Origin: an uncultured Bacteroidales bacterium
GTDB lineage: Bacteria; Bacteroidota; Bacteroidia; Bacteroidales; Paludibacteraceae
DNA: 58,098 nucleotides
NCBI GenBank assembly: GCA_902784425.1
Contig: CACZUS010000008.1
Location: forward strand, 1-58,098
Direction of reading: 5' to 3'
Position numbers and translations under genes: made by a program. Under the pieces are notes generated by a model. The model was not told the DNA's origin and ran no database searches. It saw only the letters and a list, made by a program, of their open reading frames with translations. This document shows positions 1,428 through 47,144 of the stretch, one piece after another; position 1 is the first letter of the stretch; every line of letters starts with the position of its first letter.

Positions 1428-4400
1428 TTATTTAACAATCATACTCTTTCCTTCCACGAAATTATTTGCTTTCATCACGTAGTGATAGATGCCCTTTGGC
1501 AGATTTGCAGTGGAGAAGGTGACGATATTCAAACCTTCGTTGTATTCGCCTGCAACTATCTCTTTCACTTTTTGACCTAAGCTATTATAAAGTTCAATGG
1601 AAACGAATGATCTTTCAGCGACATTAAACGTAATTGTAGTCTCGTCGTCTGTTGGATTTGGTGCATTTTGAGAAAGATAGTATCCATCTTGATTTACTCC
1701 AACTTCAGCAACACTGCTTGTGCCACAACCCTTGTTTTCTATCTTGTGTCCACCCCAGTCAAATTTTCCAGAGCTATGATTGCTGCTTACAGTGCTGGTG
1801 CGGATTTTGGTGTTTTGTGAATTATCACCATACAAGAATTTGTTGATGAATGCTTGTACCGCTTTGTTTTGGTTGTTAGAAGCTTGACAGTGGGAATGTC
1901 CACCTTCTACTACATAACCGAAACGGTCTTCAATGCCCATCGCCTTCCAAACTTCTTCAGCAGCTTTTAGTGAAGCGATACCAGAAGCATCACCCAACCA
2001 TACATAATCTGGATTTCCCAATGCAAGGAATGCACGAGGCGCACACATTGCAATCAATTCATGATGGTCGTAAGGCAATTTGTCGATTTGAGATTGGAAG
2101 TTGCTCTTGAAACTGTTGAGGAACCAGTCGTAGTTGGTGTTAGAGATACCTTCCACGTCTGAACCGATTTCAGAACTTACACGCCATGAGTTGATACCAC
2201 CTCCACCAGATTCTTGTGCAATTGTCAATGTGATACGTTCGTCGAATGCTCCTGCATACAGTGCCATTTTTCCAGCATAAGAGCAACCAGTTACAGCGAT
2301 ACGTTCCATATCAGCCTTTAACTTGCCTTCATCAGCCAATATTTTAAGACCATCAATTAAACGGCTGATACCCCATGACCATGCGCAATAATCAGCTTTC
2401 GTGTTGAATGTTCCAGGATAGAGTTTGTAGAATGGATCGTTTTGGCTTCTTCCATTTCCTCCGAATCCGGAATTGTACTCAGCAATTTGAGAGTGAGTGA
2501 ATGGTACTTGGATACACTTAGAGAAATAAGAAGAACTTAAACTTCCTGTGTTGCCATCCATACCAATCACGATTGGGTGAGGTCCATTTCCAGATGGAAT
2601 TGACATCTTACTTGTTAGTGTAAGTTTATTGCTTCCGTTGTGAATGGTTACGGTCATAGTGCTTCCAGAAAGAGATGCTTCTATCTTATCAAACTTAGGT
2701 TTCTCTCCGATCTCCCAGTACTCAATCTCACGCTTAATTTCGTTACGACGGCAAGACCAGTCGCAGAAATCTGTTACCTTGCCGCTACCATCAGCCCATT
2801 CGAATGGGTTAGGCAATGTTCTGCATGATTTCAGATTGTTTTTGTTTAATGAAGATGGCTCATCGCAATCTGCGCCAGTGTTCTCTACAGAATAGTTGAT
2901 AGGGTATACGCCAGCAGGGTTTGAACCGCTACCAGAGCCAGATCCTGAACCTGAACCTGATCCGCTGCCACTACCAGAACCACTACCAGAACCAGAACCG
3001 CTTCCACTTGTTGTGTCTACTTCTGTGAACGTTAGTTTGTCCAGATTACAGTTGTTGTTGCCAATTTTTACTTTCAAAATATGTTTTCCTTCTGAAAGTG
3101 TTGATGTTGTTGCTTTGATTGTCTCATAATCATCCCAACTTGGAGTGGAAGAACCAGATAATGAAGCAATCTCTTTGTCATCTAAGTAAAGTGTGAACTT
3201 CACGTCGTCATTCTTGTTTGATCCTACAGCTTCTACATCGTATTTGGCAGTTTTCTTTACGTTAACTGTATATTCCAACCATTCGCTAGAAGTGGTGTAA
3301 CCAACAGCCATTCCATCGGATGTTTTTACGATGTCAACACCTTCGTCTGTACGATATTTAGCATCACCTTCGTTGTTGTCGTCAGAATCATTGTAGGCAT
3401 TTCCGTTACCTCCGATATCATAGTTCTCTGCCTCTACGACACCAGGAATTGTAAATGCATCCTTATATGGCTTTTGCTCTACTACAGTAGAACCACTGCC
3501 AGATCCAGATCCTGAACCTGAACCACTTCCTTGACAACTCAAGTCACCGAGAGAACTCTCTTTGCCTTTCCATGACATACTAGCGCAGGTGTATTCCACA
3601 GATCCTGAACCTCCACCTACTTCACAAAGAATTTTACAATCGTAGATGCCTCCTAAGTTAACACCTAATTTCTCCCAGTTCTTGAAGTGCTCGGTGATGT
3701 TAACGTGTCCGCAAGTCTGATAAGAAGAACGAATAGCGAATACTTGGTCGAATGTAGATGTACCGTCGATAGAAGGTTGGTTGATTCTCTTTCCAACCTT
3801 TAAAGTATATGTAACACCATCCACTGTGTAGGTTCCTTTGGTTGCTGCTTGTCCATTGCGGCTTTGATCCCAGAACATACCACCTCCGTTAGGAGTGAAA
3901 GAATCTTCTACAATATAATACTCAATCAACGGACTTCTTGTCCATCCGTATATTCCTATATATGAGTAGCTTCCTCCACCACTTCCTTGTTTTGTGTAGT
4001 TATATACTGCGTGGATTTCTCCCAAGTCGGTATATTTCTTAGAGTTAGAACCATCGTAATAACCTACACGTGCCAAATAGTCACCTGAGTTACTCCAGCT
4101 AGCCTTGAATGCGCAGTCGGCTTTTCCTCCGAACACAGTCAAGTCTCCACCTCCACCATCGCGCCATTGCTCTACGTGATATCCATTACCAACGTCTTGT
4201 CTTACATTTCCTGATACAGATTTTCCTCCTGAATATTTTGTTTTCATAGAGCATGGATCAGGGGCGCAGTTGTCGGTTGAAGTGGATGATGAACCACCAG
4301 GCTCGGTTGTGCTGCTTCCTGGGTCAGTTGTGCTACTTCCTGAAGAAGGTTCCATTTTCAACACTTTCAACATTTGTTCTGCATAACGTTGTCCCAATGT

Positions 4401-5186
4401 ACGGTAACTCGCAGATGAGAAGTGAAGACCATCACCTTTATTGCCAAGACCTTGTGCGGAAATGACGTATGAGTTAGGAATGGTGTTTGGAACTTTTGCA
4501 ATGATATTGTTCATGCTACCACATTGACCACCTTGGTCGCTACGTACTACTTCTCCTACAAGCAAAGGAACATCTGCAGCATTTAGTCCTAAGTCTTTGA
4601 TTAGGTCGTTGTAGATGGCTTTTACACGATTTGGCCAGTCGTTTTGTCCTGTGTTAGTTTCTCCTTGATGAAGGAGGATTCCTTTGATGACACCTACCTT
4701 CTGTGCAGCTTTTCCCATCTCGACCAATCGTCCGTAAGGATTTCCTCCATACGACTGAATGGTGCTCTGCATGTATGACTCTGCACGATAGTTCTGGTAG
4801 TTTGTCTTTTCGAACAATTGAATGTCACAACCTGCGATTGCTACAACTGTAACACCCACTTTGATGTTCTCTGGCAAATTCTTTACCATTGTACGTCCAA
4901 AGTAATCTACTGGTCCGAGATGCGATCCACTACAGCATGAGAGTGGGGGAGTAGCATCATACCAATTGCCTTTTCTTCTGCTTCCGCAGTTGTCGTACGA
5001 ACAGAGAACTTGAAAACGTTTGTCCACCGTCTGATCTTGGCTTTCAATGTTTCCTTGTCCCTCCATGTTGGATTGCCCGAAACACAAATAAATGTGAAAA
5101 TTCGGATCTGGATCTGCGTAACCGCTCACCAGACATCCAAACAGCATACTAAATGCTGTCAGGAAAAAGAGTTTGATGTTTTTCAT
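1428..5186 (-). CDS. Secreted CE6 acetyl esterase - GH11 xylanase - CBM6 - CE15 glucuronoyl esterase with T9SS sorting domain
   Basis: A 1252-residue, multi-activity hemicellulase. Signal peptide about 1-24. Residues 27-277: CE6/SASA acetyl xylan esterase, with GQSNMEG (nucleophile S39), HQGETN and DGLHFS (D252/H255). Residues 305-522: GH11 beta-jelly-roll xylanase with PLIEYYIVE (nucleophile E422) and ITEHFKNWE (acid/base E499). Residues 573-725: CBM6 (VVEAENYDIGG). Residues 760-1120: CE15 glucuronoyl esterase with GCSYAGK (S969), QESGGGG (E992) and GGHSHC (H1097/H1099). Residues 1168-1252: T9SS type A C-terminal domain (SQNAPNPTDDET...). Ser/Thr/Pro/Gly and alternating Ser-Gly linkers separate the modules. 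The four modules would together deacetylate xylan, cut its backbone, bind it and cut lignin-glucuronate esters, on the cell surface or outside. Cys-rich CE modules suggest disulfides. It stands alone as one transcription unit with no SusC/D pair nearby. Domain assignments are strong; activity is inferred from motifs. Confidence 0.95.
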   Translation of the reverse strand: MKNIKLFFLTAFSMLFGCLVSGYADPDPNFHIYLCFGQSNMEGQGNIESQDQTVDKRFQVLCSYDNCGSRRKGNWYDATPPLSCCSGSHLGPVDYFGRTMVKNLPENIKVGVTVVAIAGCDIQLFEKTNYQNYRAESYMQSTIQSYGGNPYGRLVEMGKAAQKVGVIKGILLHQGETNTGQNDWPNRVKAIYNDLIKDLGLNAADVPLLVGEVVRSDQGGQCGSMNNIIAKVPNTIPNSYVISAQGLGNKGDGLHFSSASYRTLGQRYAEQMLKVLKMEPSSGSSTTDPGSSTTEPGGSSSTSTDNCAPDPCSMKTKYSGGKSVSGNVRQDVGNGYHVEQWRDGGGGDLTVFGGKADCAFKASWSNSGDYLARVGYYDGSNSKKYTDLGEIHAVYNYTKQGSGGGSYSYIGIYGWTRSPLIEYYIVEDSFTPNGGGMFWDQSRNGQAATKGTYTVDGVTYTLKVGKRINQPSIDGTSTFDQVFAIRSSYQTCGHVNITEHFKNWEKLGVNLGGIYDCKILCEVGGGSGSVEYTCASMSWKGKESSLGDLSCQGSGSGSGSGSGSGSTVVEQKPYKDAFTIPGVVEAENYDIGGNGNAYNDSDDNNEGDAKYRTDEGVDIVKTSDGMAVGYTTSSEWLEYTVNVKKTAKYDVEAVGSNKNDDVKFTLYLDDKEIASLSGSSTPSWDDYETIKATTSTLSEGKHILKVKIGNNNCNLDKLTFTEVDTTSGSGSGSGSGSGSGSGSGSGSGSGSGSGSNPAGVYPINYSVENTGADCDEPSSLNKNNLKSCRTLPNPFEWADGSGKVTDFCDWSCRRNEIKREIEYWEIGEKPKFDKIEASLSGSTMTVTIHNGSNKLTLTSKMSIPSGNGPHPIVIGMDGNTGSLSSSYFSKCIQVPFTHSQIAEYNSGFGGNGRSQNDPFYKLYPGTFNTKADYCAWSWGISRLIDGLKILADEGKLKADMERIAVTGCSYAGKMALYAGAFDERITLTIAQESGGGGINSWRVSSEIGSDVEGISNTNYDWFLNSFKSNFQSQIDKLPYDHHELIAMCAPRAFLALGNPDYVWLGDASGIASLKAAEEVWKAMGIEDRFGYVVEGGHSHCQASNNQNKAVQAFINKFLYGDNSQNTKIRTSTVSSNHSSGKFDWGGHKIENKGCGTSSVAEVGVNQDGYYLSQNAPNPTDDETTITFNVAERSFVSIELYNSLGQKVKEIVAGEYNEGLNIVTFSTANLPKGIYHYVMKANNFVEGKSMIVK
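2922..3008 (-). repeat. Ser-Gly linker repeat (long copy)
   Basis: Low-complexity DNA coding for about 29 residues of strictly alternating Ser-Gly (residues 727-755) between CBM6 and CE15. Built from hexamer variants of GGTTCA/GGATCT type in register with the reading frame, so slippage changes linker length without shifting the frame. Confidence 0.85.
3489..3530 (-). repeat. Ser-Gly linker repeat (short copy)
   Basis: Same type of hexamer repeat, coding for about 14 alternating Ser-Gly residues (553-566) between GH11 and CBM6. Near-identical DNA to the 2922-3008 block flanks the CBM6 segment on both sides, giving direct repeats around an exchangeable module. Confidence 0.8.
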
Positions 5187-46097: not shown

Positions 46098-47144
46098 TTA
46101 CTTGCCTGATTTCAACATCTTGTTAGCGTAAAGTTTACCATTAACTTTAATGCTAAGAGTGTAGTTTCCTGGGAGAAGTGCAGATGTCTCGAAGTCGTAT
46201 GAGTATTGACCAACGGTCAAGTTCTCTTTGAACAATTTAAGCACTGATTTACCGCTCAAATCGTGGATTTCAATGATAACTTCTGCATTTTCTACAAGGT
46301 CAAATGAAACGTTCAAAGACTCTGCGAATGGGTTTGGAGAAGCAAGGTAGTTGAAAGAAGCAACCTCACCCTTGGAACTCTTCTTTTTAGCAACCTTGAT
46401 TGCATCGTTTTTGTAAACTGCAGGTTTCTCCATATACATTGCTGTGTATTTTGAATTTTTGCATTTACAACCGCTTTCAGGAGTGTACTCTTGTTCTATT
46501 GTGATGATAATAGGGTAGCGAGCACCTTCTGCGAAGTATTGATAGCGGATAGAGCTGATTTTGTAAGTGCTTTGTCCGAAAGTTTCAGTGTATTCTTTGT
46601 CAACCTTAACACGAAGTACGTTTTTGTAAACGTTACCGTCAGGAAGGATCAAAGTACCCCAAGCGTCAGCTTTTGTTACGTAAGTACCATCGAAGTAGCT
46701 TGTTGTGTTGCCACTTTGAAGAGCACCTGAATATACACCAGATTTACCATCTCCAAAAGAAAGAGGGAACATCAAATCAACGATTGGCTCGTCGAGTGTC
46801 AATGTTGTATTGCTGTTTTGAAGTCCGAAGAATCTCTTTTCACTTGGAGTGATTTCAAACAATGTGTTCTTTTCTCCACCCTCGTCGCAACTTAATCTGT
46901 AACCTTCAGTTGAAGTGTTCAACAAATCTTCGTTTTGGTTGATGTAGAAGTCTTTTAACACTTTAGACTTTGAAAAGTCCCATACTTGGTTGGCACCGGC
47001 ATTGGATTGTTCTACATACTCAATCTGTTTCATGTTTCTGTAGTCACCTTCTCTCAATCCGTTTGCCTCGAATGACAAACTGTATTGAGCAAAACAACCC
47101 ATAGATAATGCTAATGCAGCTGAAAGAGTAATTAATTTTCTCAT
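46098..47144 (-). CDS. Secreted protein with T9SS type A sorting domain
   Basis: 348 residues. Signal peptide MRKLITLSAALALSMGCFA. No enzyme domain recognised; the central part is beta-rich (FEANGLREGDYRNMKQIEYVEQ). The last 80 residues (FNYLASPNPFAESLNVSFDLVENAEVIIEIHDLSGK...NKMLKSGK) are a T9SS type A domain, so the mature protein is surface-attached or released. Codon use is regular and a strong terminator follows; probably well expressed. Confidence 0.85.
   Translation of the reverse strand: MRKLITLSAALALSMGCFAQYSLSFEANGLREGDYRNMKQIEYVEQSNAGANQVWDFSKSKVLKDFYINQNEDLLNTSTEGYRLSCDEGGEKNTLFEITPSEKRFFGLQNSNTTLTLDEPIVDLMFPLSFGDGKSGVYSGALQSGNTTSYFDGTYVTKADAWGTLILPDGNVYKNVLRVKVDKEYTETFGQSTYKISSIRYQYFAEGARYPIIITIEQEYTPESGCKCKNSKYTAMYMEKPAVYKNDAIKVAKKKSSKGEVASFNYLASPNPFAESLNVSFDLVENAEVIIEIHDLSGKSVLKLFKENLTVGQYSYDFETSALLPGNYTLSIKVNGKLYANKMLKSGK

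Follow-up and report, generated by a model that had tools for sequence, protein, structure and literature searches.

The window analysed here, a stretch of 58,098 nucleotides from the draft genome of an uncultured Paludibacteraceae bacterium (contig CACZUS010000008.1), encodes on its minus strand (1428..5186) a 1252-residue protein in which a carbohydrate esterase family 6 module (CE6), a family 11 glycoside hydrolase (GH11), a family 6 carbohydrate-binding module (CBM6), a CE15 module and a C-terminal domain (CTD) of the type IX secretion system (T9SS) follow one another. The gene is a single unbroken ATG frame, and its limits agree with the open reading frame, the domain matches and complete relatives. 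Among these relatives the gene is a module-wise mosaic and the trees of its modules conflict. We consider it likely that the protein is a T9SS-exported, xylan-dismantling enzyme consisting of a frame with fixed ends, within which the inner modules are exchanged.

That the four modules and a T9SS tail stand on one chain had been proposed from a sequence-only reading of the DNA, and hidden Markov model calls bear this out, all five modules exceeding their Pfam cut-offs by scores so high that chance matches are no concern. A signal peptide with cleavage after A24 is predicted, by eye, at residues 1-24 (5115..5186, on the minus strand like all features of the gene). It is followed by the CE6 (SASA/SGNH) module at residues 30-274 (4365..5099), which matches Pfam SASA, presumably the family that contains CE6, at 119.4 bits, above the gathering score. 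The GH11 xylanase module occupies residues 334-531 (3594..4187; Glyco_hydro_11, 119.4 bits against a cut-off of 27), and the CBM6 module residues 610-721 (3024..3359; CBM_6, 62.7 bits against 28.9), a region also matched by CBM_35_2 (34.3 bits, cut-off 23) and closest by sequence to the solved structures 8zvk and 2y8k. In the CE15 glucuronoyl esterase module the GCE_fung match spans residues 846-1084 (215.6 bits, above the gathering score), and alignment to the solved relative 8trx extends over residues 761-1156 (1719..2906). The chain ends in a T9SS type A sorting domain at residues 1176-1250 (1437..1661), matched by Por_Secre_tail (34.8 bits, above the gathering score) and by NCBIfam TIGR04183 (34.3 bits, cut-off 23). 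The clear linkers noted earlier are recognisable by composition: a Ser/Thr/Pro/Gly linker after CE6 (residues 283-305, 4272..4340), and (Gly-Ser)n linkers after GH11 (residues 553-566, 3489..3530) and after CBM6 (residues 727-755, 2922..3008), the last with an imperfect 18-bp DNA repeat.

The same order was sought in other genomes, as that reading had suggested. A search of 358 Paludibacteraceae genomes (E <= 1e-150, at most two candidates scored per genome, so that counts are lower bounds) gave matches in 28 genomes and 5 of 33 genera. The complete four-module order occurs in at least 12 proteins from 11 genomes and 3 genera (G000, G001, G002, G003, G004, G010, G011, G018 with two, G345, G354 and G355; G-numbers label family genomes and L-numbers loci). 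Modules in the relatives were assigned by blastp to those of the window protein, and Pfam confirmed 6 of the 11 four-module proteins other than the window's. Two further copies are excluded, as incomplete, from this count and from the 12-protein trees: that of G007 ends at a contig end within CE15, and the four-module gene of G015 (L046:6351-10077) is broken into two frames inside CBM6, through decay or assembly error.

All catalytic residues first named from the sequence (S39, E422/E499 and S969/E992) are intact and confirmed by position, and no module falls into another family or lacks them. In CE6, S39, E176 and H255 are invariant in all 17 aligned modules, D252 is not, and the Ser/Glu/Asp/His set is kept in all 12 complete proteins. 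Because sequence matches of CE6 to solved structures are weak (best 1zmb, 36.8 bits), the module was modelled with 17 relatives by AlphaFold2 (AF2; pLDDT 92.5), and the top Foldseek folds in the PDB were 1zmb and 2apj (TM relative to the query 0.72-0.74), both of which we take to be CE6 in CAZy. Judged by its modelled fold and its Ser and His, module 1 is a CE6 acetylesterase, which would act on acetylxylan. The GH11 glutamate pair, E422 in IEYYIVE and E499 in EHFKNWE, aligns with that of PDB 5gv1 and presumably supplies the nucleophile and the acid/base, respectively; E422 is kept in 12/12 complete proteins and E499 in 10/12.

The best PDB match of CE15 is 8trx (469 bits), the structure of Piromyces PrCE15, to which S969, E992, H1099, C968 and C1100 were aligned; the canonical acid and the Cys pair of the CE15-B type are present, and Cys-Ser/Glu/His-Cys is kept in all 12 complete proteins. 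PrCE15 is fungal, and it shares the GCSYAGK elbow, the triad and the disulphide pair, with the general base immediately before the disulphide Cys, as described in PMC11345330. Since C968-S969 and H1099-C1100 match this arrangement, H1099 is the probable general base, and a C968-C1100 disulphide is predicted. The "His pair" first proposed for CE15 is accordingly narrowed down to H1099, beside C1100. The Arg that follows the catalytic Ser in the GXSRXGK motif is replaced by Tyr 970. This GCSYAGK elbow occurs in all 12 complete proteins and in 80 of 96 CE15 sequences, a set drawn with the window's clade as query and hence biased towards it; the Tyr-for-Arg elbow is, on these alignments, common in the CE15 family and not a defining feature.

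PrCE15, the closest solved relative, cleaves benzyl glucuronate with the same Tyr (apparent kcat/Km 4485 per s per M; PMC11345330), so that GCSYAGK is compatible with activity; in Fl6, too, absence of the Arg does not prevent glucuronoyl esterase activity (PMC12247016). These enzymes, together with the conserved triad and Cys pair, make it unlikely that CE15 is nearly inactive or acts on some other uronate or acyl ester as a result of the substituted oxyanion Arg, even though OtCE15B (Tyr) and BeCE15A (Phe) are reported in PMC8417218 to have low activity on model substrates, and the loss of His from an apparently dead paralogue in G003 and G004 indicates that decay does occur in the family. 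By analogy, activity of the window CE15 is expected, its substrate being less certain, and the release of xylan from lignin proposed in the sequence-only reading is the part of that interpretation that stays conditional, whereas module identities, residues, export and absence of SusD near the gene all stood.

The paralogue in question is a GH11-CE15-tail gene (L059:2899-5211 in G003, L060:4129-6441 in G004) with the elbow GRSCSGK, seen in 2 of the 96 CE15 sequences; the aligned G003 copy also lacks the GGHSHC histidine. Its CE15 is probably a dead or repurposed esterase retained beside GH11. In the CE15 tree, Piromyces 8trx falls inside a clade of 52 sequences that is otherwise bacterial (Bacteroidota, Fibrobacter), with support 0.98, although the tree does not single out its exact neighbour. 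Fibrobacter metagenome-assembled genomes (MAGs) carry a CE15 that is 60-64% identical to 8trx, which bears on the proposed transfer to anaerobic fungi.

The host genome (a draft of 3.32 Mb, 95.8% complete) encodes both components of the export machinery that were sought, with one SprA match above cut-off (2375.7 bits), one of four PorU matches above cut-off (998.9 bits) and 67 of 72 TIGR04183 tail matches above cut-off. Together with the C-terminal tail and the signal peptide these mark the protein as a putative T9SS type A cargo, in line with the export first suggested. Also in agreement with that suggestion, no SusD lies next to the gene: in a search that covered SusD and not SusC, the only SusD_RagB match of the genome is on contig C5 and the window on C8. 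Proteins of related composition are encoded in the same genome, namely GH11-GH11-CBM6-GH8-tail and GH11-tail proteins from adjoining genes and a CE6-CBM35-GH5 protein whose tail match stays below cut-off, and the gene carries the sole match of the genome to the CE15 model PF22244 (CE15s outside this model were not sought). Among the matches listed, the near relatives are Paludibacteraceae or Bacteroidales MAGs, with goat, yak, buffalo and horse gut as named sources. Machinery, tails and scarce SusD fit the setting of rumen Bacteroidales that export multimodular carbohydrate-active enzymes (CAZymes) through T9SS in place of polysaccharide utilization loci (PULs), as described for Ca. Paraporphyromonas polyenzymogenes (Ca. 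MH11), which lacks PULs (PMC5831590).

In the proposed scheme, the protein would reach the periplasm by means of its signal peptide and pass through SprA by means of its C-terminal tail, with processing by PorU. Outside the cell, CBM6 would anchor it on the plant wall, CE6 would strip backbone-blocking acetyl groups, GH11 would cut the freed xylan, and CE15 would break glucuronate-lignin esters. Replacement of GH11, CBM6 and CE15 would proceed by homologous recombination or gene conversion, the partners being paralogous T9SS genes, in part tandem copies within one genome and in part genes of other species, with junctions enriched at the linkers.

Evidence for exchange comes from pairwise comparisons, mainly of close species, in which identity changes from segment to segment along the gene. 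The syntenic loci of G000 and G004 share mostly 85-95% DNA identity in their coding flanks, 94-100% in GH11 and CBM6 and mostly 71-78% in CE15; at four-fold sites they agree at 66% in UvrB, 61% in CE6, 94% in GH11 (109 sites), 79% in CBM6, 55% in CE15 and 71% in the CTD. Between G010 and G015, three segments are 97.6, 94.3 and 99.5% identical in DNA, as against 83.3% in the first 30 residues and 70.0% in residues 318-561 (GH11), with four-fold site identities of 89% in CE6, 49% in GH11, 89% in CBM6, 99% in CE15, 100% in the CTD and 83% in UvrB. A different module stands out between G010 and G011, where DNA identity is 97.0% up to residue 723, 80.8% over residues 723-1138 (CE15) and 93.6% afterwards. 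In the pair G007/G015, GH11 (93.9%) and the start of CE15 (99.7%) are alike, but CBM6 is 61.3% identical and CE6 78.4% over residues 78-319.

Paralogues are the likely donors of the swapped modules, judging from where the closest copies are found. From residue 790 to its end (CE15 and tail), the gene of G010 is 100.0% identical in DNA to its own tandem three-module paralogue. The CE15 of G004 is 94% identical to that of the three-module gene of G011 and 81% to that of G000, and the CBM6 of G001 resembles that of its own neighbouring GH8 gene (89% identity) more than that of G000 (57%). The GH8-type gene is itself mosaic: all 6 pairs compared have breakpoints, between 1 and 3 per pair. One candidate exchange, a recent cross-genus transfer of GH11 between G000 and G018a (96% amino acid identity), was dropped, since DNA identity of 81% and four-fold site identity of 35% point to saturation under strong constraint.

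Tree comparisons for the 12 complete proteins are consistent with these mosaics. In approximately unbiased (AU) tests the GH11, CBM6 and CE15 alignments each reject all four other module trees, and the CTD alignment is compatible with the CE6 tree (0.0875). UvrB, whose gene adjoins the modular gene and whose identity was confirmed by its family model, served as species marker in a tree of 8 genomes, with the AU tests run with each of the two G018 copies (G018a, G018b). This tree is not rejected by the CE6 (0.15, 0.137) or CTD (0.20, 0.131) alignments and is rejected by those of CBM6 and CE15. The simplest reading of these trees is that the ends, CE6 and tail, are fixed and the middle is exchanged. 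The same segmentation applied to 11 pairs gave 28 breakpoints in the modular gene (2.6-3.8 kb) and 2 in UvrB (2.0 kb). Breaks lie at or near the counterpart of linker 2 in G010/G015, G007/G015, G010/G010t and G011/G011t, and G018a and G018b show an identity break in the linker that matches linker 1. The 18-bp repeat of linker 3 is a possible crossover repeat.

Several observations weigh against an exchangeable middle between fixed ends, or narrow it. Of the 42 breakpoints in the full set of 17 pairs, 20 fall no more than 10 amino acids from a linker, where 6.9 were expected, an enrichment to be taken as descriptive, with overstated p-values, because the pairs share genomes. The other 22 lie away from linkers, some of them inside CE6, CBM6 and CE15, and breakpoints are partly due to unequal constraint between modules. 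The pairs G001/G007 and G013/G006 have no breakpoint at all, and the window gene differs from that of the very close G003 in one mildly divergent segment (94.5% against 99%). Among the trees, the CE6 alignment marginally rejects the CTD tree (AU 0.047) and in the SH test fails to reject the trees of CBM6 (0.063) and CE15 (0.057), and the GH11 alignment rejects the UvrB tree with G018b (0.0013) and not with G018a (p-AU 0.058). The genomes are draft assemblies, in which chimaeric joining of paralogues is possible. Not every GH11 slot is occupied by a recognisable xylanase, since in G002 (L044) and G345 (L201) the acid/base Glu is Ala and the nucleophile Glu is kept; this GH11 type is about 44-47% identical to the window GH11 and may be a dead or binding-only module. 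Finally, a packing model of the whole chain was discarded, the near-full-length AF2 prediction with 8 close homologues being poor (pLDDT 47, pTM 0.32).

Misjoining of reads from tandem paralogues during metagenome assembly could in principle produce such mosaics, given that the paralogues stand in tandem with near-identical stretches in common, that the sources are drafts and that the four-slot gene of G015 is frame-broken inside CBM6. Yet many of the swapped modules have no close copy in the same assembly, as far as the compared loci go, the pattern is repeated across several genomes, and the UvrB tree agrees with both end modules instead of being scrambled, so we hold this origin to be improbable. 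That the whole gene was inherited vertically and its identity pattern reflects unequal selective constraint alone is highly improbable. In favour of such a reading, module speeds do differ, it suits the breakpoints of G000/G010, and many distant pairs have their lowest or nearly lowest conservation in the CTD. Against it, four-fold site identities within a single pair (G010/G015) vary strongly from module to module, AU tests reject shared trees, the G010 gene is identical to its tandem paralogue from residue 790, and the CE15 of G004 is nearer to another species' three-module protein than to that of G000.

The frame also occurs with other inner modules, in the orders GH11-CBM6-CE15-tail, CE6-CBM6-CE15-tail, CBM4-GH10-CE15-tail, BD-FAE-CE15-tail and GH11-CE15-tail. 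In genus g20, G034, G356 and G360 lack the GH11 that G354 and G355 possess; the two forms differ chiefly by one gap around residues 300-540. The window protein is, as its relatives indicate, one member of a reshuffling family rather than an isolated fusion. A protein of G034 (L048:3924-8135, 1403 residues) joins BD-FAE (feruloyl-esterase-like), four successive GH11 modules and a T9SS tail.

Beyond the family, 12 of 395 Bacteroidota genomes sampled (E <= 1e-100) gave a match, the window's own genome included; in the 11 others the matches start at residue 758 or later (CE15) and two extend towards the tail, lone CE6 or GH11 being invisible at this threshold. A survey of CE15 loci in named genomes covered the best 80 matches. 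Among the matches listed, CE15 is fused to CE6 or GH11 in 9 of 79 loci, all in Paludibacteraceae or Bacteroidales MAGs, and weak CBM6-like matches (22-31% identity) lie beside CE15 in L136, L138, L144 and L154. Also among the matches listed, a stand-alone CE15 gene is directly followed by a separate CE6 gene in 7 of 14 Fibrobacter loci (L096, L097, L099, L100, L104, L105, L121) and by a CE6-tail gene in Bacteroidota L142 and L155. Since CE6 and CE15 occur in adjoining genes elsewhere and are fused in Paludibacteraceae, a joint role of both is supported. Joint action of the modules on one chain is plausible; for several multicatalytic enzymes, intramolecular synergy was not observed according to PMC8417218. 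The linked form of BeCE15A-Rex8A is reported to do no better than a mixture.

The architecture is a variant of known multimodular T9SS CAZymes, and its module-by-module evolution is the more interesting point. Ca. MH11 has TIGR04183-tailed CAZymes such as GH11-CBM6 and GH8-CBM6-GH11, comparable to the GH11-GH11-CBM6-GH8-CTD and GH11-CTD proteins found here (PMC5831590). The main text on Ca. MH11 differs in naming CE1, CE3 and CE4 and not CE6 or CE15, and its accessible text holds no comparable four-module order or module exchange (PMC5831590). CesA of Ruminococcus flavefaciens likewise unites an acetylxylan esterase and a glucuronoyl esterase in one rumen protein, but the former is CE3, the latter is of the CE15-A type with a non-canonical acid, and no xylanase is mentioned in the accessible text (PMC11345330). 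Caldicellulosiruptor CkXyn10C-GE15A carries a xylanase, a glucuronoyl esterase and CBMs (CBM9/CBM22) on one chain, with GH10 in place of GH11 and no CE6 in the description available (PMC8280721). The CBM4-GH10-CE15-CTD proteins of G008 and G009 parallel that enzyme. To our knowledge, CkXyn10C-GE15A has no T9SS. The acetyl-feruloyl esterases Fll4 (PMC12247016) and BoCE6-CE1 (PMC8417218), also from Bacteroidota, combine an N-terminal CE6 with a second esterase, which is of CE1 type; as described they have no xylanase, and Fll4 is PUL-encoded (PMC12247016).

As had been surmised from the sequence, no printed or characterised protein of the same four-module order was found in the open-access literature searched, supplements and subscription papers being outside its scope. 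That CAZymes shuffle their domains has long been a general idea, and no report of module-by-module evolution of such a gene was found in that literature. In the window, the gene lies between tRNA-Ser (1153-1240) and uvrB, and a 348-residue protein with a T9SS tail as its sole Pfam match (46098-47144, minus strand) is presumably another T9SS cargo.

These results describe deacetylation, xylan cutting and lignin-ester cleavage, as predicted, together in a single exported protein of an uncultured gut lineage that apparently manages largely without PULs. Tentatively, the herbivore-gut Paludibacteraceae might hold a natural combinatorial enzyme library, in which vertically inherited head and tail would act as docking frames, inner modules would be traded between tandem paralogues and between species with linker DNA as crossover zones, and each species would tune its wall-attacking protein by replacing modules rather than by acquiring new genes or PULs, some slots holding a GH11 without acid/base that is maybe a binder. 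The naturally recombined pairs G010/G015 and G010/G011, in which mainly one module differs against a nearly constant background, allow the old question of covalent linkage and module choice in wall attack to be tested directly. Should exchange prove frequent, CAZyme phylogenies built at the level of genes would mislead in this group unless done per module.

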